Notes: generated from the letters alone by a model not told the origin. Positions 16,664-30,349 are shown, counted from the stretch's first letter. The stretch: 64,000 nt of DNA from Terriglobia bacterium (GCA_020073085.1 JAIQFV010000008.1:1-64000), one strand, 5' to 3'. Numbers and translations are program-made.

Positions 16664-16693
16664 TTGATATTCAGAATTTCATTCTGATAGAAT
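16664..16693 (+). promoter_or_regulatory. promoter with a dyad between -35 and -10
   Basis: TTGATA (16664-16669) and TAGAAT (16688-16693) are 18 nt apart. The spacer holds a perfect inverted repeat, TCAGAAT-TTC-ATTCTGA (16671-16687), that ends exactly at the -10. An operator centred in an over-long spacer is the layout used by MerR-family metal regulators, although those spacers are usually 19-20 nt. The promoter drives the small CxxC protein at 16760 and probably the czcCBA genes after it. No regulator gene is adjacent. Confidence 0.55.
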
Positions 16694-16759
16694 GACGCGT
16701 CCCGAATGAGATTGCATACCAGAGCGACGACGAAGGCCTTGTACCGCAGAGAGCGGCGC

Positions 16760-17140
16760 ATGATTTCCATCCTTGTGCTTTGCGCCTTCTCGTTCTTTTC
16801 ATTTGCCCTCTCCCTGGAGCACACCTGCCTGACCCAACAGGGACTTGACTTGTCCCAGGTTGCTCCTGCAATTTCCAGCTCATCCGGGGCGGCCGGGACT
16901 GTTGTATCCCCTCACCCCTCATTTTCCAGCCTTCGTGGAACAGCAACAAACCAGGGGGACGGCATTTGTCTGGCCTGCGCATGGTCGCAGTCGCTGATCA
17001 AGCAGGTGGCGATCGTTCACCTGATCAGCCCTTCCCTGGTGAATTCCCTGCTGCTGACACCTTCCGATCGAGTCACTCCATTCCTGGATTTGTGCCTGGC
17101 CATGCAAAAAAGAGGCCCCCCCCGCGTATCTGCATGCTAA
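16760..17140 (+). CDS. small secreted CxxC...RGPP protein (copy A)
   Basis: A 126-residue protein with an N-terminal hydrophobic signal (about 2-18), then His21 and Cys23, a Ser-rich stretch, CLAC at 70-73 and a C-terminal RGPP at 118-121. The first Cys of CxxC lies 48 residues before the Arg, as in the proteins at 23123 and 26544. The general shape recalls DUF2946-type small proteins found near copper and heavy-metal genes, but the match is from memory. It precedes the outer-membrane factor gene by 110 nt and follows a dyad promoter. An upstream ATG at 16706 would add 18 residues ahead of the signal. A role in periplasmic metal binding or sensing is inference. Confidence 0.65.
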   Translation: MISILVLCAFSFFSFALSLEHTCLTQQGLDLSQVAPAISSSSGAAGTVVSPHPSFSSLRGTATNQGDGICLACAWSQSLIKQVAIVHLISPSLVNSLLLTPSDRVTPFLDLCLAMQKRGPPRVSAC

Positions 17141-17199
17141 TTCCCTGATCTTCTTCGATTTGAACTCTAACGATCTTTGACTGCAAGATGTGTAACCCG

Positions 17200-17238
17200 C
17201 TTGCAGGAAAGCTATTGCCAATGCAACAGCTTTGCAAG
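17200..17238 (+). promoter_or_regulatory. inverted repeat overlapping the czcC ribosome site
   Basis: CTTGC..AAAGCT (17200-17213, with a short bulge) pairs with AGCTTTGCAAG (17228-17238) around a 14-nt loop. The right arm runs into the AAGGAG ribosome binding site at 17236-17241, so the folded RNA could partly hide it. The function is inferred; it may be chance. Confidence 0.4.
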
Positions 17239-17250
17239 GAGAACCCGTCC

Positions 17251-18552
17251 ATGATCCCATGGGCAAACCGCCTCAGGGCCTTGGTATTCATTCTTGGTCC
17301 TTTTCTGATCTGCAGTCCCCTCCGGGCGCAAGCGCCGTCGCCTCCCGTTCCATCGAAGCCGATCCGTGTCATCGCCATGGGCGAGGCCATTCAGCTCGCG
17401 TTGGAACACAACCAGGCGATGCGGGCACAACGCCTGAATGTCGACCAGTCGAAAGCGAACGAAATCACCGCGTCGTTGAAGCCGAACCCCGTGTACACTA
17501 CCACAAACGAAGATTTTCCGATCTTCAACCCCAGCCAGCTCACCGGGGACAATCTTCGGAACAATCAAGAATTCCTCCAATCCATTAGTTACACCTTTGA
17601 GCGGGGGGGAAAACGCCAAAAACGAACCGTGGTGGCCCAGGATACGACGGACCTCGTTTCCAAAGGCGTCTCCGATTTCGAACGCCAACTGAAATTTCAA
17701 GTGGCGCAGGCTTTCGTCAACGTCTTGCTCGCAAAATCCAACCTCCAATTCTCGAACGAGGATCTGAAAGACTTCTCCGAGGTCGTGGCCATCAACAAGA
17801 GCCGCCTTGATGCCGGGGATATCTCCGAGGCAGACTACTTGAAGATCGCCCTGCAGAAACTTCAGCTCGAACAGGACGTCTCGGGCGCGGATCTGGCCCT
17901 GGTGCAGAGCAAAGCCGCGTTAAGGCAACTGCTCGGGTACGAAACGGTGGCCGAAGATTTTGATGTGCTGGGTGAACTGGGCCACAAGAAGTACACCCTC
18001 GGACCCGATGAACTCGCGCGGCAGGCCTTGCTTGAGCGTCCCGACTTTCAGGCGGCCCAAAGCGCCGTCAAGCTCGCTGACGACACGGTCTCTCTGGCGT
18101 ACGGCAACCGTGCGCGCGATCTCACGGGCGAATGGGAGTACAAGCGAAACGGGCCGGTCAATGGAGTTGGATTTGGCTTTTCCATCGATCTCCCCGTTCA
18201 TGATCGCAACCAGGGGGAGATCGCGCGCAGCAAGGTGGCCGCTCGGCAGGCTGAGGAATCCCAGTCCGCAACACGCGTCGGCGTGCTCACTGACGTCGTG
18301 AATGCTTACTCCAGTTTCAAGACAAATGATCGCATCGTCTCGTTGTATGAATCGGGCTACCTAGGGCAGGCCACGCAATCGCGCGAGATTAGCAACTACG
18401 CCTACCGCAAGGGAGCCACTAGCCTGCTTGATTTGCTCGACGCGGAGCGCAGCTACCGCGCCATTCAGCTCGCTTATCGTCAGGCCCTCGCGGCGTTCAT
18501 GCTGAGCGCCGAACAAATCAACCTGGTGGTCGGAAAGCAGGTGCTGCAATGA
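17251..18552 (+). CDS. czcC: CzcC/TolC-family outer-membrane factor
   Basis: About 433 residues with a signal peptide (cleavage likely after CSPLRAQA), then the two-fold repeated coiled-coil pattern of outer-membrane efflux proteins: MGEAIQLALEHNQAMRAQRLNVDQSK near the start and KGATSLLDLLDAERSYR near the end. It forms the trimeric outer-membrane channel of a tripartite pump. The ATG at 17251 follows AAGGAG by 9 nt. Its stop overlaps the adaptor gene start as ATGA. Neighbours place it in heavy-metal efflux. Confidence 0.9.
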   Translation: MIPWANRLRALVFILGPFLICSPLRAQAPSPPVPSKPIRVIAMGEAIQLALEHNQAMRAQRLNVDQSKANEITASLKPNPVYTTTNEDFPIFNPSQLTGDNLRNNQEFLQSISYTFERGGKRQKRTVVAQDTTDLVSKGVSDFERQLKFQVAQAFVNVLLAKSNLQFSNEDLKDFSEVVAINKSRLDAGDISEADYLKIALQKLQLEQDVSGADLALVQSKAALRQLLGYETVAEDFDVLGELGHKKYTLGPDELARQALLERPDFQAAQSAVKLADDTVSLAYGNRARDLTGEWEYKRNGPVNGVGFGFSIDLPVHDRNQGEIARSKVAARQAEESQSATRVGVLTDVVNAYSSFKTNDRIVSLYESGYLGQATQSREISNYAYRKGATSLLDLLDAERSYRAIQLAYRQALAAFMLSAEQINLVVGKQVLQ

Positions 18553-19760
18553 CAAAACTTCAACAGAGATTTCTTGCCGGGTTGCCGATCCTCCCCGCCG
18601 GGAGGCAGCGATGCGCGGCGCTTCTGCTCTCGGGCCTCCTCGCGATATTCACCTCAGCCTGCAGCACGTCAAAAGAAGCCACGCGTCCCGCGAGCCACGA
18701 GCCTGAGAATAACGAACCGAGCCTGTTCGTCATTCCTGCGAACCAGCTCCCCCATCTTCAAATCCTCCCGGTTCAGAAGACCACGTGGGCCCTTACCATT
18801 CGCACCACGGGGACCGTCGATTGGGACAATGACCACACCACCCAGGCGATCGCCCAGGTGAGCGGACCCATCACCCGGATTCTGGTGGATACCGGAACTT
18901 ACGTCAAAGCGGGACAGCCTCTCTTGGAGGTTTCAAGCCCGGACGTGACAACCGCCGTGGCAGCTTATCGAGTGGCGCATAACCGATTGAATTTGGCCAC
19001 CTCGACCCTGAATCGGAGTCGGGACCTGTTGGACCATCACGCCATCGCGCAAAAGGATCTCGAAGGGGCCCAGGCCGACTATAACGACGCCGCGACCCAG
19101 ATGCAAACCACTCTCCAGGCATTGAGAATATTTGGGATTACTCAAAAGGAGATCGAGGAAGGCGAAAAACAGGGAGTCTCGATTAGTCCTCAACTTGCCG
19201 TCAGGTCGCCCATCAGCGGAATGGTGATTCAAAAACTCGTGTTTCCAGGACAACTGATCCAAGCGGGGGCCACGACTTGTTTTCTGATCAGCAATGTGTC
19301 GACGGTGTGGGTCCAGGGGCACATTTATGAGAAGGATTTGACCTCCGTACGGGTGGGGGATCTCGTGGAGGAAACCAGCACCGCCCTCCCCGAGGCCTTC
19401 CACGGGGTCATTTCGTACATCGGGGCAATGGTGGACCCTGCGACCCGGACCACCCCCGTCCGAATTGTGACGAGCAATCCCAAAGGGCTTTTGAAGAAGG
19501 ACCTCTTCATGGACGTCGTCATCCACACTCAGACCAAGAAAGACGTGCTTGTCGCGCCTGCCTCCGCGGTCTTGTACAACGCCGACAACCAGCCCTTTGT
19601 ATATGTCCAGGCAGGGGCCGACAAGTTTGCGCAACGACTGGTCACGATCGGGACCCAACAGAAAGACCAAATCGAAATAACGAACGGACTGAAGGAGGGG
19701 GAGAAGATCGTCTCGGCGGGAAGCCTCTTCCTGCAGTTTGCCAACACCTATCAGCAGTGA
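18549..19760 (+). CDS. czcB: CzcB/CusB-type periplasmic adaptor (membrane fusion protein)
   Basis: A 403-residue protein with a lipobox-like signal end (IFTSAC at about 36), a lipoyl/barrel-sandwich half motif (ILVDTGTYVKAGQPLLEVSSPD), a helical hairpin (about 140-200), the second half motif (AVRSPISGMVIQKLVFPGQLI) and beta-barrel and membrane-proximal domains. It bridges the inner-membrane RND pump and the outer-membrane channel, probably as a lipoprotein. No long His- or Met-rich metal-binding tail is seen. It overlaps czcC by 4 nt and precedes czcA by 94 nt. Confidence 0.92.
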   Translation: MTKLQQRFLAGLPILPAGRQRCAALLLSGLLAIFTSACSTSKEATRPASHEPENNEPSLFVIPANQLPHLQILPVQKTTWALTIRTTGTVDWDNDHTTQAIAQVSGPITRILVDTGTYVKAGQPLLEVSSPDVTTAVAAYRVAHNRLNLATSTLNRSRDLLDHHAIAQKDLEGAQADYNDAATQMQTTLQALRIFGITQKEIEEGEKQGVSISPQLAVRSPISGMVIQKLVFPGQLIQAGATTCFLISNVSTVWVQGHIYEKDLTSVRVGDLVEETSTALPEAFHGVISYIGAMVDPATRTTPVRIVTSNPKGLLKKDLFMDVVIHTQTKKDVLVAPASAVLYNADNQPFVYVQAGADKFAQRLVTIGTQQKDQIEITNGLKEGEKIVSAGSLFLQFANTYQQ

Positions 19761-19854
19761 AGAGGTTCTTGTGGAAGATTCGGAGGGGTGAGCCCAATCC
19801 TGTTCCTCCACCTCTCAAGGCGGTCAGGATCTTCGCGCTCCGAAAAACATTCTT

Positions 19855-22800
19855 ATGATCAATCGCATCGTATCCTTCGCGCTTTCCCAGCGATTCCTCA
19901 TCGTCATGGCCATGATCTTCTTGATGATCTGGGGGGTCATTTCGTTTCAAAAGCTGCCCATTGATGCGTATCCCGATCTTTCGCCGCCGCACGTGGAGAT
20001 CATCACGCAGTGGCCCGGCCACGCCGCCGAGGAGGTGGAGCGCCTCATCACCATCCCGATTGAATTGGAAATGAATGGCATCCCCCAATTGCAGGCACTG
20101 CGCTCCATCTCCCTGTACGGACTGTCATCAGTCCAGATGAACTTCCAGTACAACACGGATCCCTACTTTGTACGCGAGCAGTCCTTCGAAAGACTCCCCA
20201 ACGCCTCGGTGCCGGCGGGCATTCAGCCCACCCTCGCTCCCCTGTTCAGCCCGAGTGGATTGATTTATCGCTATGTCCTCCAGAGTCCCGACCGAACGCC
20301 TCAGGAATTGAAGACCTTTGAGGACTGGGTGGTGGAACGGCATTATCGCGCCATCCAGGGTGTGGCCGATGATTCAGGTTTTGGCGGGGCAACGATGCAG
20401 TACCACGTCCTGCTGGATCCGAACAAGCTCCTCTCTTATGGTGTCACGGTCCCCCAGGTTGTGCAGCAGTTGGGCAATAACAACGCCAATGCGGGGGGAG
20501 GATTCTATTCATCCGGAGGCCAGTTTTACTATGTCCGGGGCCTGGGCCTGGTGAAGACCCCTCAGGACATCGGAAACATCGTCGTCGCCACGCACAACGG
20601 GGTCCCCACCTATGTGCGCGACGTGGGCAAAGTCGAGATTGGCCACGCTGTCCGATTGGGCCAGTTCGGTTACATGAAGCAGGATGATGCGGTTGAGGGT
20701 GTGATTCTCATGCGGGTGGGAGAGCAGGCGCAGGTGATTCTTGACAAGGTGGAGCAGGTCACTGAAAACCTAAACAAGAACGTGCTTCCCCCGGATGTGA
20801 AGGTCGTCCCCTTCTACGACCGGCACTATCTCATCGAGGAAACGACCCGCACGGTGGAAAAAAACCTCCTGCTGGGCATGGTCCTGGTCCTGGTCATCCT
20901 GGGCCTGCTTCTCTTCAGCTTCCGCACAGCGTTGATTGTGGCCGTGACCATCCCCTTTTCCCTCCTGTTTTCCTTCATCTGTTTGGACTGGAGGCACATT
21001 CCGGCCAACCTGCTTTCGATCGGGGCGATTGACTTCGGCATCATCGTCGATGGCGCGGTGGTCATGGTGGAGAATATCTTTCGCGAACTCGCGGCGCGCC
21101 GCGGACAGGAGTACCACCTGATCGATGTCATCCGCGCGGCGGCGCGGGATGTGGAACGCCCGATTTTCTATGCCATTGCCGTGATCATTGCAGGCTATTT
21201 GCCCATTTACGCGCTGACCGGGCCCGCCGGCAGGCTGTTTCAGCCGATGGCCGACACCATGTCTTTTGCCCTGGTGGGGTCGTTGATCTGCTCGCTGACC
21301 TTGCTCCCTGTCCTGTGTGCCTTCCTTCTAAAGAAACATATCAAAGAGCCGGACGTGAAGATCTACGAACGCATTCGGAATTCTTACGGGGTGGCGCTGG
21401 GCTGGTGTCTGAGGCATCGCGCGGTCACCACCTTGATCTGCGTGGGAATTTTTGGAGCCTCCCTGCTCCTGATCCCTTTCATCGGCGCGGAATTCATGCC
21501 TCATCTGGACGAAGGGGCCTTATGGGTCCGGGCCACAACACCCTACACGATTTCCTTCGATGAGGCTGCGAAGTTGTCGCCCCAGATCCGGAACATCCTG
21601 ATGAGCTTTCCGCAAGTCACCACGGTCGCCAACGAGCTGGGCCGGCCGGACGACGGCACAGATCCCATCGGGTTCTTCAACAACGAGTTTTACGTCGGTT
21701 TGAAGCCTTACGATGACGCTTCATGGCGGGGTGAAATTCGGACCAAACCGAAATTGATCGACGCCATCCAGGAAAAACTGTCTGCCTTTCCCGGGGTCAT
21801 CTTTAATTACACGCAACCGGCCGAGGACGCCGTGGATGAGGCTGAAACCGGATTGAAGAGTGCCCTGGCGGTCAAGATTTTTGGCACGGATCTGGCCACT
21901 CTCGAAGAGAAATCCAAGGAGGTCAAACGCATCATTTCCCAAGTGCCGGGAATCACTCATATCAGCATTGTCCAGGAACTGGGTCAGCCCAGCCTCCTTA
22001 TCGTGCCCGACCGGGACAAGATCGCGCGTTACGGGCTCAACGTCGGCGACATTAACACGCTGATTGAGACGGCGATTGGGGGAAAAGCGGCCAGCCAAGT
22101 CATCCAGGGAGAACGCCAATTTGACCTGGTTGTCCGGATGCAGGAGCCATTCCGGGAAAACATGGACGCCATTCGGAACCTGCTGATCGCCACCCCCGAC
22201 GGCCAGCATCTTCCTTTGAGCCAGTTTGCTGATATTCAAGTCAGTAACGGCGCTTCTTTCATCTACCGCGAATCGAACTCGCGTTACGTCGGGATTCAGT
22301 TCAGTGTGGAGGGCCGGGACCTTGCGAGCGCCATCGGAGAAGCGCGAAAAAAGGTGGACCAGCAGGTCAAGCTTCCGATCGGTTATTCGTTCGATTGGGG
22401 GGGCGAATATAAGGAGTACCTGGCGGCGCGCTCCCAGATGAAGATCATCGTTCCTCTGACGGTGCTCATCATCCTGCTCATTCTCTTTGCCCTTTACGGC
22501 AACATGAAATTCCCCTTGATCATCATGTTCAGCGTGCTCGTTACCCAGCCGGTCGGCGGCTTGCTGGCCCTCAAGCTGACGGGAACGGATTTCAGCGTTT
22601 CCTCGGGGCTTGGATTTGTCGCCCTGATGGGTGTCGCCGTCCAAACCAGCGTGATTCTTTACTCTTTCATCAACAAGCTTCGCCTCGAAGGGAAGGACCC
22701 CCTCACGGCGACTTATGAGGCCTCCCTCCTGAGGCTCCGCCCCATTCTGATGACCGCGCTGGTTGCCTGCTTCGGTCTTCTTCCTGCCGCCATGTCGACC

Positions 22801-22938
22801 GGGATCGGCAGCGATTCGCAGAAGCCGTTCGCCATCGTCATCGTCGGCGGGATGATTTCGCGCCTGCTTCTGTCCATCTTTCTCGCCCCGGTTCTGTATG
22901 CCCTCGTTGCCCGCAAGGATGATGTACTGAAGGTTTGA
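19855..22938 (+). CDS. czcA: CzcA-type heavy-metal RND efflux pump
   Basis: A 1027-residue inner-membrane RND transporter with 12 predicted helices and two large periplasmic loops. The TM4 signature reads DFGIIVDGAVVMVEN (about 392-406), the divalent-cation (Zn/Co/Cd/Ni) type of HME-RND pumps, not the copper/silver type. N-terminal (RFLIVMAMIFLMIWGVISFQKLPIDAYPDLSPP) and GxEFMPHLDEG motifs are typical. It is driven by proton flow and extrudes metal from the periplasm or cytoplasm through CzcB and CzcC. No ribosome site is obvious before the ATG, so translation may depend on the upstream genes. Length is normal. Confidence 0.94.
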   Translation: MINRIVSFALSQRFLIVMAMIFLMIWGVISFQKLPIDAYPDLSPPHVEIITQWPGHAAEEVERLITIPIELEMNGIPQLQALRSISLYGLSSVQMNFQYNTDPYFVREQSFERLPNASVPAGIQPTLAPLFSPSGLIYRYVLQSPDRTPQELKTFEDWVVERHYRAIQGVADDSGFGGATMQYHVLLDPNKLLSYGVTVPQVVQQLGNNNANAGGGFYSSGGQFYYVRGLGLVKTPQDIGNIVVATHNGVPTYVRDVGKVEIGHAVRLGQFGYMKQDDAVEGVILMRVGEQAQVILDKVEQVTENLNKNVLPPDVKVVPFYDRHYLIEETTRTVEKNLLLGMVLVLVILGLLLFSFRTALIVAVTIPFSLLFSFICLDWRHIPANLLSIGAIDFGIIVDGAVVMVENIFRELAARRGQEYHLIDVIRAAARDVERPIFYAIAVIIAGYLPIYALTGPAGRLFQPMADTMSFALVGSLICSLTLLPVLCAFLLKKHIKEPDVKIYERIRNSYGVALGWCLRHRAVTTLICVGIFGASLLLIPFIGAEFMPHLDEGALWVRATTPYTISFDEAAKLSPQIRNILMSFPQVTTVANELGRPDDGTDPIGFFNNEFYVGLKPYDDASWRGEIRTKPKLIDAIQEKLSAFPGVIFNYTQPAEDAVDEAETGLKSALAVKIFGTDLATLEEKSKEVKRIISQVPGITHISIVQELGQPSLLIVPDRDKIARYGLNVGDINTLIETAIGGKAASQVIQGERQFDLVVRMQEPFRENMDAIRNLLIATPDGQHLPLSQFADIQVSNGASFIYRESNSRYVGIQFSVEGRDLASAIGEARKKVDQQVKLPIGYSFDWGGEYKEYLAARSQMKIIVPLTVLIILLILFALYGNMKFPLIIMFSVLVTQPVGGLLALKLTGTDFSVSSGLGFVALMGVAVQTSVILYSFINKLRLEGKDPLTATYEASLLRLRPILMTALVACFGLLPAAMSTGIGSDSQKPFAIVIVGGMISRLLLSIFLAPVLYALVARKDDVLKV

Positions 22939-22981
22939 GGGGGGAGCGAATCAGCATTTGCTGCCAGCAGATCCGGGTGGA

Positions 22982-22999
22982 GTATTAAGATCTTACTAC
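22982..22999 (+). promoter_or_regulatory. imperfect 18-bp palindrome upstream of the copy B gene
   Basis: GTATTAAGATCTTACTAC is palindromic except for one base pair and has a perfect TAAGATCTTA core. It lies 43 nt after the czcA stop and 124 nt before the ATG of the small CxxC protein at 23123. It could be an operator or a weak transcription stop for czcA; no T-run follows, which favours an operator. Confidence 0.4.
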
Positions 23000-23122
23000 C
23001 CACAGACCTGATCAGTAGGCAGATGTCCTGATTTGAAATCCAGGATCAGGGACGTTGTCATTGACGCTGTTTTGTTTCGTGTGGTGGCATCCACACGTTA
23101 CTTCCGGCCTGTTTGGGAAACT

Positions 23123-23467
23123 ATGAAATCAAAGCACAGAGGCAGGCTGCTGATCGGAGCACTCATTGCGCAGATTGTGGTGGTGCAGTTTGCGCTCGAT
23201 GCTCACTATTACCTGCACCTTCCGAGTTTGTTCCGATCCCAACACACGGCGTTTAACAGCACAACGTCAGCAACCTCCCCTACGCCTCACTCGGATTGCG
23301 GGTTATGCAGGACTGGACAGACGTATCACAGCCTTGCGGCGGTCCAAACCTATCTGATAGTCCGCATTCCTGAGGTGTTGGCAGCGCGGGAGCTCGAGGC
23401 GGAAGGATCCTCCGCCCTCTGTGTTTTTTCCCATACCACCCGTGGGCCCCCTCCCTTGAATCTCTAA
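23123..23467 (+). CDS. small secreted CxxC...RGPP protein (copy B)
   Basis: A 114-residue protein with a basic N-terminus, a hydrophobic segment (about 9-25) and His28/His32 just after it. A Ser/Thr-rich stretch follows, then CGLC at 59-62 and RGPP at 107-110. The spacing from the first Cys to Arg is 48 residues, the same as in the proteins at 16760 and 26544, though the sequence between is little conserved. It lies between czcA and a TonB receptor, 112 nt before the latter. A GGGAA ribosome site precedes the ATG at 23123. I propose an envelope metal-related accessory protein; this is inferred from context only. Confidence 0.65.
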   Translation: MKSKHRGRLLIGALIAQIVVVQFALDAHYYLHLPSLFRSQHTAFNSTTSATSPTPHSDCGLCRTGQTYHSLAAVQTYLIVRIPEVLAARELEAEGSSALCVFSHTTRGPPPLNL

Positions 23468-23507
23468 TCAATTCCAATTTGACTCTTTTCAACGCAGCCT
23501 CAAATGA

Positions 23508-23524
23508 AAAGCGCCAGGCGCTTT
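23508..23524 (+). promoter_or_regulatory. 17-bp inverted repeat before the TonB receptor
   Basis: AAAGCGCC-A-GGCGCTTT is a perfect inverted repeat in the gap between the copy B gene and the TonB receptor, 55 nt before its ATG. The one-base loop is too tight for a good RNA hairpin without opening inner pairs, so a DNA operator is as likely as an attenuator. Confidence 0.4.
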
Positions 23525-23579
23525 CACCCGCGGGCTGTATTCACATATCATTTTTTGATGATTGGATTGGAGATTTCAT

Positions 23580-26171
23580 ATGCAGAAGCACATTCTCTTT
23601 TTCACGCTTTCCATTGGGCTCATTTTCGGGACCCTTAGTTCTTGGGCACAGTCTTCAGGGACCCTCGAGGGTGTAGTCAAAGATCCTTCAGGGGGTGTCG
23701 TACCAAACGCCACAGTCGAAATTCACAATCCGCTAAGCCATTTTGAGCGAAGCGCAACCACCGACAGAGAAGGGAAATTTCGTTTCACGACCATACCATT
23801 CAATCCGTATCACCTGCTAGTGACGGCCCCTGGTTTCGCGTCGTACACGCAGGATATCGATGTGCGCTCGCTGGTGACGATAAATCTCGAAGTGAACTTG
23901 AAGTTGGCAACGGCAGAAACCACAATGACTGTCCAAAGCGAGGCGGGAGACTTGGTCGAAAACGACCCGACGGCCCACACGGATGTGGATCGCAACCTGT
24001 TTTCGAAGATGCCGTTGGAAAGCGCCTCGTCCTCAATCAGCTCTCTGATCACATTTGCGACTCCGGGCGTGGCCGCCGATTCCAATGGCTTCATGCACGG
24101 TCTGGGGGAGCATCAAGAAAACGCCTTCTCGGTAGACGGACAGCCCATCACTGACCAGCAAAGCAAGTCCTTCTCCAACCAGATCCCAGTGGGGTCGGTG
24201 CAATCTCTTGAAGCCGTAAACGGGATTCCTCCGGCCGAGTATGGCGACAAGACCACCTTGATCGTCAACGTGACGACACGCTCGGGTCTTAACCTGCGGC
24301 CGACAGGCGACGTGAATGCTTCGTATGGCTCGTTCGGGACGAGCAATGTTGGCTTCAACTTCGCCGTCGGCAGCCAACGATGGGGAAACTTTATAACCGT
24401 AAACGGGCTCCAGTCCGGCCGCTTTCTCGATCCCCCCGAGTTGCAAGTGATCCACGCCAAAGGAAATTCCGAGAACATTTTCGACCGCGTGGATTTTCAG
24501 CCCAGCACGCAAGACACCTTCCACGTGAACCTGAATTATGCCCGCTCCTGGTTCCAGCAGCCCAATCAGTTCGATCAGGTGACCGCGGGGCAGGACCAGC
24601 GAGCACTCATCAACACGTTCAATTTCGCGCCCGCATGGACGCACGTATTTAATGCGAATACGGCCCTGACGGTGGGCGCTTTTGTGCGCCAGGATCGCTA
24701 TCACTATTATCCGAGCGCGGATGTCTTCTCGGACCTGCCCGCGACGCTCGCTCAAAGCAGGCATCTCACCAACCTCGGAGTGCGTTCCGATCTCAGTTAC
24801 GTGAAGGGTGCGCACAACATTAAGGTGGGTGTGCAATTTCAACACTGGTTACTGAACGAGAAGTTCAGTTTGGGCCTCACAGATCCGAGGTTCAACGCAC
24901 CCTGCCTGCTTCCCTCAGGCGGGGCGGACTCGAATCCAACCCCGGTCGATCCCACCCGATGTTCGACGGTTAACCCGGGGGACACTACAAATGACGGTTT
25001 CTTGCCGGGGCTCCTGCCATTCGACTTGTCTCGCGCCGGCAGCCTGCTAAACTTCAACGACCACACGGACATCAAAGAAACTTCCCTGTATGTTCAGGAC
25101 GCAATTACCGTCAGGAACTGGACCTTCAACCTGGGCCTCCGCGGCGACTTTTACCGCGGACTGAGCAGCGCCTCGGCGCCGGAGCCACGCCTTGCCCTCG
25201 CTTACAACATCAAAAAAACCAACACACTGCTGCGCCTGGGCTATGGGCGGGCCATTGTCACTCCGTACAACGAGAACCTGCTGCTTTCCGGTTCGACGGG
25301 AATTGGTGGATTGGGTGGCCCCGGGGGTGGCGCAATACCCCCCAAGCCGGGTTATCGCAATCTGCTTAGCGCGGGGATCGAGCAGGCGTTCGGAAAACAC
25401 CTCGTCGTGGCAGCGGATTATTATTGGAAATACACCACTCCCGACTATGACTTTGGCGTCTTATTCAGCACACCCCTGACCTTCCCCGTTCAGTGGGCAA
25501 AATCGAAGATTGATGGAGTCGCCGTGCGCGTGAGCATGCCGAACTTCCACGGATTTTCATTGGTGACCGTCCTCGGAACCTCGCGTGACCGGTTCTTTCC
25601 ACCGGGAGTCGGGGGTCTGATTTTCAACGAACCACCCCCGCCAGGCGTTTTTCGTATTGACCACGACCAGGCGTTCCAGCAGAGCACACACGTCCAGTAC
25701 CAATGGAAGGGTACCGGCCCTTGGATCGGGTTCAATTGGCGATACGACAGCGGCCTGGTGGCCGGCGCCGTTCCCTTTGCCACGGATACGACCACTCCGG
25801 TCGACCTCACCGCCCTGACACCAGACCAGCAGATTCAGGCGGGACTTTTCTGCGGAAATGTGTTCCCGACGCTGGCCGCGCCGTTGACAAGCTGCGCGCC
25901 GTCCGCATACGGATCGACCCAAATCAACATCCCAGCCCCAGGCACCCAGGATGACGACCGCAATCCAGCTCGCATCAAAGGGCGGAACCTGTTTGACGTG
26001 GCACTAGGCGTTGACAACCTCTTTCACGGTGACCGGCACAAATGGAGTTTGCGCTTTACGGTGATCAACCTGATGAATAAGACCGCACTGTACAACTACT
26101 TGTCTACCTTCAGCGGCACACACTTCGTCACGCCGCGCACCGAAGCGCTCGAACTGGGCTTTCACTTTTAG
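23580..26171 (+). CDS. TonB-dependent outer-membrane receptor with carboxypeptidase-regulatory domain
   Basis: About 863 residues: signal peptide ending ...LSSWAQ, a carboxypeptidase-regulatory-like beta-sandwich (GTLEGVVKDPSGGVVPNATVEI... near 25-105), a plug domain (about 120-220) and a large beta-barrel ending in an aromatic residue (LELGFHF). The architecture is that of the Oar/SusC-like receptors common in Acidobacteriota. It takes up a ligand across the outer membrane using TonB energy. Position within the metal island suggests a metal or metallophore ligand, but the barrel does not reveal one. The ATG at 23580 follows TGGAGA by 6 nt. A terminator follows at 26219. Confidence 0.88.
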   Translation: MQKHILFFTLSIGLIFGTLSSWAQSSGTLEGVVKDPSGGVVPNATVEIHNPLSHFERSATTDREGKFRFTTIPFNPYHLLVTAPGFASYTQDIDVRSLVTINLEVNLKLATAETTMTVQSEAGDLVENDPTAHTDVDRNLFSKMPLESASSSISSLITFATPGVAADSNGFMHGLGEHQENAFSVDGQPITDQQSKSFSNQIPVGSVQSLEAVNGIPPAEYGDKTTLIVNVTTRSGLNLRPTGDVNASYGSFGTSNVGFNFAVGSQRWGNFITVNGLQSGRFLDPPELQVIHAKGNSENIFDRVDFQPSTQDTFHVNLNYARSWFQQPNQFDQVTAGQDQRALINTFNFAPAWTHVFNANTALTVGAFVRQDRYHYYPSADVFSDLPATLAQSRHLTNLGVRSDLSYVKGAHNIKVGVQFQHWLLNEKFSLGLTDPRFNAPCLLPSGGADSNPTPVDPTRCSTVNPGDTTNDGFLPGLLPFDLSRAGSLLNFNDHTDIKETSLYVQDAITVRNWTFNLGLRGDFYRGLSSASAPEPRLALAYNIKKTNTLLRLGYGRAIVTPYNENLLLSGSTGIGGLGGPGGGAIPPKPGYRNLLSAGIEQAFGKHLVVAADYYWKYTTPDYDFGVLFSTPLTFPVQWAKSKIDGVAVRVSMPNFHGFSLVTVLGTSRDRFFPPGVGGLIFNEPPPPGVFRIDHDQAFQQSTHVQYQWKGTGPWIGFNWRYDSGLVAGAVPFATDTTTPVDLTALTPDQQIQAGLFCGNVFPTLAAPLTSCAPSAYGSTQINIPAPGTQDDDRNPARIKGRNLFDVALGVDNLFHGDRHKWSLRFTVINLMNKTALYNYLSTFSGTHFVTPRTEALELGFHF

Positions 26172-26218
26172 ACCGCGGTAGTGGAGAGAGGTACCTGACG
26201 CGGAATCATGGGAAAAAT

Positions 26219-26253
26219 GGGGACTGCCGCTACCAGGCGTGGTCCCCCTTTTT
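26219..26253 (+). terminator. rho-independent terminator after the TonB receptor
   Basis: GGGGAC (26219-26224) pairs with GTCCCC (26242-26247), with a further CGC/GCG pairing inside, followed by CTTTTT. It lies 48 nt past the receptor stop and separates this unit from the copy C/porin/ABC unit. Confidence 0.6.
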
Positions 26254-26543
26254 GACCGTTTATTTCTCATACGACGAAGGCTCTGTGGCCCACAGACAAG
26301 ATGGCCACTTTCTTAGGACACCCTACAATCGAACAGCCCCGTATCAATCGCGTGCCTGTGGTGTATCCCTCCTTCACGGCATAATTCGAGTGTTTGAGGA
26401 GCACGGAGGTCACTCGGCGGCCCTCCCATGAAGGTGAAACATGAGGCGGTGAGAGCCCGGCTATTGAATCGCTGTCAACCGGCCCGTATTCTTGAATCTC
26501 GGTACTTTGTGACAACGTCAAACAGCTTTGATAAAATGGACGA

Positions 26544-26897
26544 ATGGCGAGTAAACGCTTGAAGCACCGATCTCCTAAGCGGGTTACTTCCTGTTTTCTG
26601 TTGTTGATGCAGCTCAATCTGCTTTGTGTCATTACGCTGCATCGCCATGAAATGGAGGGATGGGTTCCTCCAACGACCGCTGTTCATGAACTCGGCCGAC
26701 GATCGCATTCCCCTGTTCCGAGCACTCTTCTCTGCATGACTTGTCGGGCCGCCCGGCATCTCGCTGCCGGTCCCCCGGCCTACTTTTCCGCTCCCGAGCC
26801 TGCCCCGGCAATCTCCTTGTCGCTTGCGTCTTCACCCGGTGGCTTCCATTCCCACGCCCCGGCTGTCACGCGTGGACGCGCACCTCCGTTCTGCTAG
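26544..26897 (+). CDS. small secreted CxxC...RAPP protein (copy C)
   Basis: A 117-residue protein with a basic N-terminus, a hydrophobic segment (about 17-32), His33/His35, CMTC at 64-67, a Pro/Ala-rich stretch, and RAPP at 112-115 near the C-terminus. The first Cys lies 48 residues before Arg112, matching copies A and B exactly. A GATAAAAT element directly upstream, with TTGTGA before it, may be the promoter. It lies 90 nt before the porin-like gene, with a perfect palindrome in the gap. Secreted, thiol-containing and metal-associated by context. No enzymatic function is suggested. Confidence 0.65.
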   Translation: MASKRLKHRSPKRVTSCFLLLMQLNLLCVITLHRHEMEGWVPPTTAVHELGRRSHSPVPSTLLCMTCRAARHLAAGPPAYFSAPEPAPAISLSLASSPGGFHSHAPAVTRGRAPPFC

Positions 26898-26908
26898 TCG
26901 GTCCTTTT

Positions 26909-26928
26909 TCACTACTTTAAAGTAGTGA
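26909..26928 (+). promoter_or_regulatory. perfect 20-bp palindrome, candidate operator
   Basis: TCACTACTTTAAAGTAGTGA is a perfect palindrome between the copy C stop and the porin start. The ACTAC...GTAGT arms resemble BlaI/MecI/CopY-type operator boxes, though the centre is two bases longer than the classic BlaI box. No T-run follows, so an intrinsic terminator is unlikely. No repressor gene is nearby. Confidence 0.6.
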
Positions 26929-26987
26929 CACGGCGCACCCGTGGGAATTCCACCTCACAATTCTATAAGTACTACTTGGAGGGTGTC

Positions 26988-28277
26988 ATGCGACTACTGA
27001 AGGTTTTCGCCTGCTTGGCCTTGCTCACCTCGACAATGCTCTGGGCGCAATCCAAAGACGACATCCAAGAACGGCTGAAGGCCAACGAAGAGCGAATCAA
27101 GGCCTTGGAGTCAGAGATCAAAGACCTCAAGGCCATCCTGGCCGCGGTGGCCCGAAACGTCCCGACGGCGCCCGTGCTGCAAGGAGTTGAGCCGCAGGCG
27201 CCCCCGCCGGCTCAGTTACCACCGACTCCCCAGACTATTCCGACCACGCCTACCCTGTCCGGAGAATCTGCTGGCCAGATTCCCGTCTATGGAGGTTCCA
27301 GCGCCGCTGCAAAGGCACTGAACCCCGACATCAGTGTGATTGGGGATTTCCTCGGTTCCATCGGCAGGAATCCCTTGAACCCCGTTCCCACACTGGAGAT
27401 GCACGAATCCGAGGTGGGGTTTCAGGCCATCGTCGATCCCTACGCGCGTGCCGATTTCTTCCTTTCCTTCGGCGAGGAAGGTGTGAACCTCGAAGAAGGA
27501 TTCTTAACCTTCACCTCACTGCCAGCAGGACTGGTCGTCAGAGCCGGTAAGATGCGTGCGGCTTTCGGCAAGGTGAATACCTTGCACAACCACGTCTTGC
27601 CCTGGACTGATCGGCCTCTAGTCACCGGGAGCCTTGTGGGAGGTGAAGATGGAATCAACGACGCGGGCCTTTCTGTGACCCGGATCCTTCCCGCACCCAG
27701 GGATATTCTTCTGGAAGGAACATTGCAGGTCTTCCGCGGGGATTCCGCTGATGTCTTCAAATCCAGCCGAAATCGGGATGTCAGTCTGGTGGGACACCTT
27801 CGAGGGTACCGCGACCTGACCGAATCCACAAACTTGGATCTGGGATTGTCTTATGCCCGGGGTCACAATGAGTTGGGTAGTGGATTTCTCACCCAACTTT
27901 ACGGAATGGACGCCACTGTGCACTGGAAGCCATTGCGACGGGCCATCTATCATTCCTTCGTGGGACGCACTGAACTCATTTGGAGCCAGCGGCAACAGAC
28001 AGGAAACGTCCAGCGAGCCTTTGGCCTTTACACTTCCGGCGACTATCAACTTGCAAGGCGATGGTTTATCGGCGGACGTTATGATCGCTCCGCCCGGTCA
28101 AACAATGCGAATCTGATTGACAGCGGGTTTTCAACCATCCTGACCTACTGGCCCAGTGAGTTCAGTCAAATCCGCGGACAATATCGGTTTGCCCATTATG
28201 CCGAAGGCCGCGACGGGAATGAGTTACGTTTTCAACTTCAATTTTCTCTTGGGGCGCATGGCGCCCACCCATTCTAG
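26988..28277 (+). CDS. porin-like outer-membrane beta-barrel with coiled-coil N-terminus
   Basis: About 429 residues: signal peptide (MRLLKVF...MLWAQ), a coiled coil (about 20-50, KANEERIKALESEIKDLKAIL), a Pro-rich linker (about 65-100) and a C-terminal beta-barrel ending near LGAHGAHPF. The coiled coil suggests trimerisation and periplasmic or peptidoglycan contact, as in OprP/O-type porins. There is no TonB plug. It is translated from GGAGG plus ATG at 26988 and is followed after 8 nt by a metal-binding ABC protein, so it likely passes metal ions across the outer membrane. The substrate is inferred from the operon. Confidence 0.75.
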   Translation: MRLLKVFACLALLTSTMLWAQSKDDIQERLKANEERIKALESEIKDLKAILAAVARNVPTAPVLQGVEPQAPPPAQLPPTPQTIPTTPTLSGESAGQIPVYGGSSAAAKALNPDISVIGDFLGSIGRNPLNPVPTLEMHESEVGFQAIVDPYARADFFLSFGEEGVNLEEGFLTFTSLPAGLVVRAGKMRAAFGKVNTLHNHVLPWTDRPLVTGSLVGGEDGINDAGLSVTRILPAPRDILLEGTLQVFRGDSADVFKSSRNRDVSLVGHLRGYRDLTESTNLDLGLSYARGHNELGSGFLTQLYGMDATVHWKPLRRAIYHSFVGRTELIWSQRQQTGNVQRAFGLYTSGDYQLARRWFIGGRYDRSARSNNANLIDSGFSTILTYWPSEFSQIRGQYRFAHYAEGRDGNELRFQLQFSLGAHGAHPF

Positions 28278-28285
28278 GAGACCCC

Positions 28286-29236
28286 ATGATCCAACGAATC
28301 AATCAGTTCCTCCCCGTATTCTTGATGCTTATGGTAGCGGCAGCGCTATCAATGCTCCTTTCCTCACCGGCGAAAGCCGCGGCAAAACTGAAGGTCGTCA
28401 CAGCGACGACAGACATGGCGGTGCTTGCGGAAGAGGTGGGGGGCGACCACATTGAAGTGGAATCGATTGCCCGCGGATATCAGGATCCGCACTACGTGGA
28501 GGCCAAGCCCAGCTTCCTGTTGAAACTGCGCAAGGCCGACTTGCTCATCGTGGTGGGACTTCAACTGGAAATCGGCTGGCTGCCGCCGCTCATCACGCAG
28601 TCGGGCAACCCCCGCATTCAAGTCGGAGCCCCTGGCTACCTGGATGCTTCCCAGTTCGCGGAAATCCTGGAGATTCCCACGGGCACGGTCACGCGGGCCA
28701 TGGGCGATGTGCATCCCCTGGGGAATCCGCACTACTGGCTCGAACCGGAAAACGGCCGCCGCATCGCCCGCGGAATTCAACAGAGGCTGGCGGAAATAAG
28801 ACCTGAAGACAAGGTTTTTTTCGAGCAACGCTTCCAGTCCTTCAGCCAGCGCCTCACCGTGGCGGAGAAGAACTGGGACGATCAAATGAGGCCATTTCGC
28901 GGGCGCAAAGTGATCACCTATCACCGCTCCTGGCCCAACTTCACGAAGCGGTTCGGCCTGAACGTGGTCAACTTTGTGGAGCCGCGGCCGGGTATCCCGC
29001 CCAGCCCCGGCCACACGCTGGACCTGATTGGAATGATGCGCCGCGAGAGCGTGAAGGTGATTATGGTGGAACCGTACTTCGATCTAAAGACGCCCAACAG
29101 TATCGCGAGCCAGACCGGAGCCCAGGTGGTCGTCCTGTTGCCATCGGTGGGAGGTGAGAAGGAGGTGACCGATTACTTCAAACTTTTCGATTACGATGTG
29201 GCATTGCTTACGAAAGCGTTTAAGGCGGCCCAATAG
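28286..29236 (+). CDS. Zn/Mn-type ABC substrate-binding protein (cluster A-I)
   Basis: A 316-residue periplasmic protein with an N-terminal signal. The ZnuA/PsaA fold motifs show likely metal ligands His69 (GYQDPHY), His149 (GNPHYWLEP), His213 (TYHRSWPNF) and an acidic residue near 262-266 (EPYFD). It lacks the His-rich loop of many ZnuA proteins, so zinc versus manganese cannot be decided. It is tightly placed between the porin gene (8 nt) and the permease gene (20 nt), with a GGAG ribosome site. Confidence 0.9.
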   Translation: MIQRINQFLPVFLMLMVAAALSMLLSSPAKAAAKLKVVTATTDMAVLAEEVGGDHIEVESIARGYQDPHYVEAKPSFLLKLRKADLLIVVGLQLEIGWLPPLITQSGNPRIQVGAPGYLDASQFAEILEIPTGTVTRAMGDVHPLGNPHYWLEPENGRRIARGIQQRLAEIRPEDKVFFEQRFQSFSQRLTVAEKNWDDQMRPFRGRKVITYHRSWPNFTKRFGLNVVNFVEPRPGIPPSPGHTLDLIGMMRRESVKVIMVEPYFDLKTPNSIASQTGAQVVVLLPSVGGEKEVTDYFKLFDYDVALLTKAFKAAQ

Positions 29237-29256
29237 GACTCTATCGAGGAGGTCCA

Positions 29257-30138
29257 ATGGAGATTCTTCCATTTTTGTTAATGCCGTTTCTGGCGAGTTT
29301 GATTTTGACAGGCATCCATGCTTATCTGGGCGTGCACGTCGTCGAGCGCGGGGTCATCTTCGTTGACCTCGCCTTGGCCCAGATTGCAGCGCTTGGGGCC
29401 ATAGTGGCCATCCTCATGGGAATGGACCCTCATGGAACGGGGGCGTACTGGCTCAGCCTGGCTTTCACGTTTCTGGGGGCAATTGTCTTTTCGCTTCTTC
29501 GGGTTCGACATGCGCGCATCCCCCAGGAAGCCATCATCGGGATTGCTTATGCTGTCGCCTCTGCTGCGGCTATCCTGGCCATGAGCAAGGCCACCGGAGA
29601 GACTGAGCACCTTAAGGACATGCTCGTCGGGAATATTCTGGCGGTTTCGGGTCGGGAGGTCGGCAAGACCGCGCTGCTCTATGGAGCGATCGGTTTATTC
29701 CACTTTGTCTTCCGGAAGAAGTTCCTGCTGATTTCGATTAATCTTGCAGCTGCAGAAGCTCAAGGCATTTCAACTCGCTTCTGGGATTTTCTGTTCTACG
29801 CCTCCTTCGGATTCGTTGTCACTTCCTCTGTGGCCATTGCAGGGGTATTGCTGGTTTTCTGTTATCTGATCGTGCCCTCTGTCGGAGCCATGTTGTTCGC
29901 AGACCGGATCGGCCGCCGGTTGGCCATTGGGTGGACAATGGGGACGCTGGTTTCTGCACTTGGAGTGTATTTCTCGGTCGAACTCGATCTGCCGACGGGG
30001 GCCACAATCGTCTGCACCTTCGGAGGAGTTCTCGCATTCATGTTCTTGCTGCATTTTCTGTTCCACCGCCAACGCGCGGCGGGAGAGATCCAGCAGGTCA
30101 TCTCGCAGGTTAAGACCACGACACCATCCGATCGTTAA
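29257..30138 (+). CDS. ZnuB-type metal ABC permease
   Basis: A 293-residue membrane protein of the ABC-3 family with about eight helices. It contains ALAQIAALGAIVAI near the N-terminus and the typical AEAQGIST...GVLLVFCYLIVPSVGA segment toward the C-terminus. It is the channel for the binding protein encoded just upstream. A strong GAGGAGG site precedes its ATG. The expected ATPase (ZnuC) is missing: the gene is followed by 271 nt of non-coding DNA and an unrelated dehydrogenase, so the ATPase must be supplied from elsewhere. Confidence 0.9.
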   Translation: MEILPFLLMPFLASLILTGIHAYLGVHVVERGVIFVDLALAQIAALGAIVAILMGMDPHGTGAYWLSLAFTFLGAIVFSLLRVRHARIPQEAIIGIAYAVASAAAILAMSKATGETEHLKDMLVGNILAVSGREVGKTALLYGAIGLFHFVFRKKFLLISINLAAAEAQGISTRFWDFLFYASFGFVVTSSVAIAGVLLVFCYLIVPSVGAMLFADRIGRRLAIGWTMGTLVSALGVYFSVELDLPTGATIVCTFGGVLAFMFLLHFLFHRQRAAGEIQQVISQVKTTTPSDR

Positions 30139-30349
30139 AGAGGAGATTTCAACCGAGACCTGACTTTGTCGAATTGGCGAGAGTCTCGATTTTCTGATTG
30201 CTCCTGTCGCCCCAGCTCCACTTCACCTCGGCACAACGGAGGAACGAGGGGAGCCGATCATCTCATAGTCATTTCACCGCAATTCGGGCTGTCTTAATGT
30301 TTCATTCGAATCGGCGCTCTCTCCCGCCCGTGCAGTGGCCAATATCCAA

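Follow-up and report, generated by a model that had tools for sequence, protein, structure and literature searches.

Probable CruR/CutF-type regulatory uORFs upstream of metal-transport operons in a Terriglobia bacterium

The window, i.e., the whole stretch of 64,000 nucleotides (64 kb) analyzed here, contains three small exported reading frames (u1, u2, and u3), each preceding a different transport operon or receptor gene. By analogy with published systems, we interpret them as regulatory uORFs of the CruR/CutF type, that is, as stalling metal sensors that control the next operon, and estimate the probability of this interpretation at about 0.88. The three reading frames fit this type in gene order, export segment, motif spacing, long leader, and C>G region. 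The motifs, their spacing and conservation, the position in the operon, and a codon-level C>G signature were all observed here. With this interpretation, the puzzling "periplasmic proteins" of a preliminary description become a testable regulatory system.

Three small reading frames and the operons behind them

The first uORF, u1, occupies 16706..17140 (plus strand, as for all features of the window below) and heads a czcCBA-like operon; it is supported by the spacing motif, a conserved start, and a dN/dS of 0.29. Its CxxC (CLAC, 16967..16978) is a presumed metal ligand, the putative arrest codons of its RGPP motif (AGA GGC CCC CCC) lie at 17111..17122, and an intergenic leader of 110 nt (17141..17250) separates it from the gene of an outer-membrane factor. 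The second, u2 (23123..23467), heads a TonB receptor gene and is supported by the spacing motif and by 89% identity in the sister species of the same genus (G001). Its CxxC (CGLC) is at 23297..23308, its putative RGPP arrest codons (CGT GGG CCC CCT) are at 23441..23452, and its leader of 112 nt is at 23468..23579. The third, u3 (26544..26897), heads a porin-znuA-znuB operon; it has a CxxC (CMTC) at 26733..26744, putative arrest codons for RAPP (CGC GCA CCT CCG) at 26877..26888, and a 90-nt leader before the porin gene at 26898..26987.

All three begin with a hydrophobic N-terminal segment (export signal). The CxxC starts at residues 70, 59, and 64 and the R[GA]PP at residues 118, 107, and 112 of u1, u2, and u3, respectively, which confirms the preliminary description in placing the first Cys 48 residues before the Arg in each of them. 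It was also right that the intervening sequence is barely conserved, with 3/44 identities for every pair. R[GAS]PP occurs 24 times when all six frames of the 64-kb window are read, and a CxxC in the preceding 60 residues is found for u1–u3 only, always at a distance of 48. Between the second Pro and the stop there are 5 (u1), 4 (u2), and 2 (u3) residues, and an R[AG]PP placed 2–5 residues before the stop of a small exported ORF matches the layout of the RAPP/RGPP arrest peptides. The His residues that had been placed directly after the signal are present in u2 and u3, and u1 has H-x-C (EHTC) instead. The gap of 90–112 nt to an envelope gene corresponds to 110, 112, and 90 nt, counted from downstream starts at 17251, 23580, and 26988.

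The proposed starts of u2 (23123) and u3 (26544) were retained, and that of u1 was revised. The true start of u1 is probably the ATG at 16706, and the ATG at 16760 an internal one, because the latter reads TTA in the sister species, where the 16706 ATG and the −10 sequence TAGAAT are kept. This −10 sequence belongs to a promoter-like element directly 5′ of u1 (TTGATA-18-TAGAAT, 16664..16693), and a similar element (GTGACA-17-TAAAAT, 26509..26537), whose −10 ends 6 nt 5′ of the ATG, precedes u3; both are kept in the sister species. The −10 boxes thus end 6–12 nt before the two start codons (16688–16710 and 26532–26546 of the window), with conservation in the sister species. Since the ATGs of u1 (16706) and u3 (26544) lie approximately 6 nt or less past the expected transcription start, both uORFs may be leaderless or near-leaderless.

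The downstream genes agree with the earlier assignment to an outer-membrane factor, a TonB receptor, and a porin. u1 is followed by a CzcC/IhpA-like outer-membrane factor of the IhpA/CusC type (17251..18552), a CzcB/CusB-type membrane fusion protein (18549..19760), and a CusA/CzcA-type heavy-metal RND pump (19855..22938; TIGR00914, above cutoff). The target of u2 is a CarboxypepD_reg TonB/Oar-type outer-membrane receptor (23580..26171). The target of u3 is an unclassified coiled-coil/beta outer-membrane porin (26988..28277), which gave no Pfam match above cutoff, followed by a ZnuA/AztC-like substrate-binding protein (28286..29236) and a ZnuB/AztB-like ABC permease (29257..30138). No ATPase (ZnuC) gene adjoins these ZnuA- and ZnuB-like genes (28286–30335), and the next large ORF beyond them looks by eye like an aldehyde dehydrogenase. 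The znuAB and czcCBA-like neighbors suggest zinc or another divalent ion as the sensed metal. Efflux and import call for opposite responses, which weighs against one device serving both; the leaders or the sensors of u1–u3 would therefore have to differ in the sign of their response or in the metal. Since the 48-residue device recurs within one genome, ahead of an efflux pump, a receptor, and an importer, comparing its copies bears on metal choice and on the ON/OFF sense of the response.

Copies in the genome and across the class

A search of the whole 5.79-Mb genome of this soil acidobacterium with the CxxC-48-R[GA]PP DNA pattern gave seven matches, and the reversed control gave none. Six of the seven are small exported ORFs (u1–u6) that stop 2–5 residues past the PP, each with 44 residues between CxxC and R[GA]PP. 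All six are retained in the sister species, and two are retained in a different genus of the same family (G002). Relatives were found neither in a scan of viral contigs with u2 nor by tblastn against plasmids, and PADLOC gave no match.

The pattern is widespread across the class. Our class sample of fetched loci contained 54 such uORFs (44 without close relatives), which stop 1–12 residues past the PP, with a median gap of 90 nt to the downstream gene. A spacing of 48 was seen in 51 of the 54, a count that is biased in that most of the loci were collected using spacing 48. A separate search at spacing 49 gave a single family-like case (G050:C13), one at spacing 47 gave a family-like case (G032:C4) and perhaps another (G053:C29), and two cases with spacing 46 were met by chance in the flanks of fetched loci. 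The number of residues between the motifs is nearly always 44 in the class, with 42, 43, and 45 being rare. The spacing is therefore 48 as a rule, from which some lineages depart slightly. In two genomes (L034 and L037), a pair of uORFs lies on opposite strands; the uORF preceding a TonB receptor has spacing 48, and the other, which precedes a different envelope gene, has spacing 46. Two genomes of one genus (L028 and L029) carry similar tandem RGPP uORFs approximately 1.1 kb apart.

The genes downstream of the class uORFs encode TonB/Oar receptors, CzcC-like factors, RND adaptors, and the same type of porin as the u3 target, the last also at L022/L131, L023/L133, L096, and L099. The porin-ZnuA-ZnuB and OMF-adaptor-RND gene orders are kept in other families of the class. 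This recurrence of the same pairings bears out the earlier proposal of a dedicated family with one member for each metal-transport route. Nascent-peptide metal sensing thus looks routine in the phylum Acidobacteriota, where it has so far been unstudied. Another RAPP uORF of the genome itself, u5 (L059, G000:C6, at 9123 on the minus strand), precedes an outer-membrane protein with CxxCH (8953-7520) and a protein whose cupredoxin domain scores above the Pfam cutoff. These surroundings point to copper or respiration rather than transport. Cytochrome b/c genes lie beyond the cupredoxin-domain gene.

The dN/dS of the uORFs is 0.27–0.43 compared with 0.09–0.17 in their target genes, i.e., the constraint is 2–4 times weaker, and these substitution patterns indicate that the uORFs are translated and under purifying selection. 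An alignment of 18 divergent class members leaves just six invariant residues (H, C, C, R, P, and P); the CxxC and RxPP motifs are thus preserved in distant relatives, as the preliminary description had expected, and the 18 members, which share no position beyond these six, show no sign of a conserved folded mature domain. A possible relation to DUF2946 (PF11162) is also upheld. At E ≤ 1, 9 of the 18 class members tested match this Pfam family (best value, 7.7e-7), and one class relative exceeds the gathering cutoff of 23.7 bits with 29.3 bits. u2 scores 15.4 bits, which is below the cutoff, and u1 and u3 gave no match to DUF2946. By score, u1–u3 lie outside the Pfam family, and we regard them as a divergent branch within the Acidobacteriota.

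For u4 and u6, no convincing protein gene was found on the same strand within 1.2 kb downstream. Instead, a conserved element of approximately 93 nt is located 145–230 nt past their stops; its unpaired parts are rich in C and U, and it ends in a strong terminator hairpin. Conserved within it are the stretches CUCUCCUA..CCUCUC and CCCACC, and its hairpin has 13 pairs and leads into a U-rich tract. The element is 93% and 86% identical between the species studied here and its sister species, compared with 46–65% for both flanks. It was located at L058:8519-8611 (minus strand) and L061:3194-3285 (plus strand), each behind a CxxC-48-RAPP uORF, and further loci are L066, L067, and L069. A covariance model gave five high-scoring matches, limited to the three genomes of the family and each behind such a uORF; the uORF homologue in the other genus is likewise followed by the element and no gene. 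A scan of the genomes of 84,980 species with the core identified two of the carriers as the Terriglobia MAGs SRVP_39 and STD1_3, and its other matches were in unrelated phyla. A third core match in the genome (G000:C3) was rejected as a chance occurrence within a coding sequence, and the weak matches beyond the family resemble terminators that have no relation to the element. The element loci gave no Rfam match. A target search by perfect complementarity to Shine-Dalgarno (SD) sequences gave one match per genome, neither of which was at a gene.

The likeliest reading of this element is a small RNA, with the arrest peptide determining its production. In such an arrangement, the amount of a trans-acting RNA would be governed by the stalled nascent peptide, and a single metal signal would thereby reach many mRNAs. 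We propose only tentatively, and with some doubt, that metal-sensing arrest peptides control small RNAs besides transport operons in this family of Acidobacteriota. In the literature searched, we found no described arrest peptide with a small-RNA output, and the arrangement, if true, would be a new kind of output.

Possible mode of action and alternative interpretations

For u1–u3, stalling, metal binding, the involvement of Rho, and peptide turnover are expected by analogy with the published relatives. Each peptide would be exported while being translated, and the ribosome would stall at R[GA]PP with the two prolines in the P and A sites. At this stage, the CxxC located 48 residues back would be just out of the exit tunnel and translocon and able to bind metal, which would change the persistence of the stall. 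A chain of 44–45 residues roughly spans the exit tunnel and the translocon entrance, and this would be the reason why the linker is fixed in length and free in sequence. The state of the stalled ribosome would in turn decide the expression of the downstream transport operon. Most likely, it would block or permit the loading of Rho at the arrest codons and at the start of the leader, where the RNA is rich in C and poor in G, as in CruR, and in some pairs a paired ribosome-binding site may also be freed, as in CutF. The finished peptide is probably a by-product.

The excess of C over G peaks on the arrest codons and the stop, with a mean of +19.6% compared with 2.5 ± 7.9 in the downstream genes, and exceeds +10 in 93% of the uORFs. 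In the final 26 codons, the C-minus-G value is 18.0, compared with 13.0 under synonymous recoding (p = 2e-9), and no such increase over recoding was found in the preceding 26 codons. The richness in C also extends over the leader's first 20 nt (p = 5e-7). This signature fits a Rho-dependent attenuation of the CruR type, with the region being a candidate rut site only, as C>G is no proof of rut. Among the 54 uORFs, CCT encodes the first Pro of R[AG]PP in 54%, compared with 10% of the Pro codons in the downstream genes, and this preference includes the copies without a downstream gene. It may reflect the same avoidance of G or a codon requirement of its own. A role of CCT as an anti-SD sequence was rejected: the recoding test was weak, the swap test was negative, and Rho-linked G-avoidance explains CCT equally. 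No convincing intrinsic terminator was found in the leaders of u1–u3, and the window gave no match to Rfam.

The same device might have a mainly translational output of the CutF/SecM type, in which the stalled ribosome opens a structure hiding the ribosome-binding site and Rho is not used; we consider this possible, although rather unlikely. Its best case is u2, whose final codons and stop (23458..23469) are predicted to pair with the SD region of the receptor gene (23560–23577). In folding calculations, occlusion by a stalled ribosome raises the SD accessibility from 0.05 to 0.29, and from 0.11 to 0.35 in the sister species, where the pairing is conserved; the pairing is also stronger than in the recoded control (p = 0.04). 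The RAPP codons of u3 (CACCUCC) are predicted to pair with GGAGGGUG of the porin SD. Over 39 pairs, pairing is slightly above that of recoded codons (Wilcoxon p = 0.035, Fisher p = 0.006), but it is no better with the uORF's own SD than with the SDs of other genes (p = 0.28). Moreover, stalling hardly alters the predicted SD accessibility for u1 and u3, and the C>G signature is much stronger than the SD-pairing signal. We therefore prefer CruR-like attenuation for the family, with a CutF-like contribution being plausible for u2 from the folding models.

The preliminary description had regarded the three as periplasmic accessory proteins, i.e., mature metallochaperones that pass metal to the product of the adjacent outer-membrane protein gene. 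The signal sequence, the CxxC, the His residues, and the adjoining transporter genes would suit such a role, but it is probably wrong and we consider it improbable, as these features are those of published metal-responsive arrest-peptide uORFs. Only six residues are conserved across the class, with R, P, and P at the extreme C-terminus, and the linker identity is as low as 3/44 despite its fixed length. The choice of the C-terminal codons is itself selected, beyond the protein sequence, and for two of the six copies (u4 and u6) neither a transporter nor another protein gene was found on the same strand within 1.2 kb. Proteomics does not detect the CruR peptide, complementation in trans with its gene fails (PMC9426467), and CutF is degraded upon export (PMC9973294).

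It is still less probable that the peptides are export monitors of the SecM/ApdP type, sensing Sec function and not metal: signal sequences and RAPP/RGPP are shared with ApdA and ApdP (PMC10951233, PMC10987492), but the CxxC and the His are invariant at a fixed distance in the present uORFs, and the identified targets are all metal or envelope-transport genes, none of them sec or yidC.

Comparison with known arrest-peptide systems

The preliminary description knew of no described function for such proteins, but CruR and CutF have already been published. CruR of Bordetella pertussis (BP2923, DUF2946) is a metal-responsive regulatory uORF in which RAPP stalls the ribosome and CxxC senses copper; the metal relieves the stall, whereupon Rho ends transcription before the receptor gene (PMC9426467). 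The CxxC and RAPP of CruR are separated by 45 residues, a spacing conserved to 1–2 residues, and five extra linker residues strongly impair regulation; a C>G bubble in cruR was linked to Rho by Roy et al. (PMC9426467). RAPP and RGPP arrest ribosomes experimentally in several contexts, and toeprinting of the CruR arrest placed the Pro codons in the P and A sites (PMC12992588).

The window uORFs resemble CruR in being small exported ORFs at the first position of an operon, with a TonB receptor gene behind both u2 and CruR. They also share the CxxC and the near-C-terminal RAPP-type motif (45 residues in between for CruR and 44 for u1–u3), a C>G region at the C-terminal end, and a long leader (162 nt for CruR and 90–112 nt for u1–u3). 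Among the differences, copper is proven for CruR. The present genome has six copies, of which three follow one another and precede, in turn, an efflux system, a receptor, and a porin-znuAB operon. Furthermore, u1–u3 are below the Pfam cutoff, two of the three have RGPP, and the starts of u1 and u3 look leaderless.

CutF of Rhodobacter capsulatus is, like u1–u3 in our interpretation, an exported DUF2946-type metal sensor with a C-terminal Pro motif and cis control of a downstream envelope gene (PMC9973294). However, CutF has a CxxxC and a Pro-rich end unlike RAPP, and metal strengthens its stall; CruR and CutF are reported to respond in opposite directions (PMC9426467, PMC9973294). CutF uses an SD hairpin, which is weakly supported here except for u2. 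CzcI of Cupriavidus metallidurans is a small CutF-like protein located before czcCBA, as cited in PMC9973294, and in this position it resembles u1. CzcI is without the C-terminal proline motif that u1 has as RGPP. The ApdA and ApdP peptides and the uORFs listed in PMC12992588 share with u1–u3 the C-terminal RAPP/RGPP, the small exported protein, and a functionally linked gene downstream. The latter list includes TonB- and Cu-linked uORFs, of which the TonB-linked ones are said to span Gram-negative bacteria (PMC12992588).

The literature searched held no family-level description of the Terriglobia set, the 48-residue rule, the porin-znuAB pairing, or the copies linked to a candidate small RNA. 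In comparison with the known systems, the ORFs of the window add members to an already known mechanism, and the copies linked to a candidate small RNA may represent a new variant of it.
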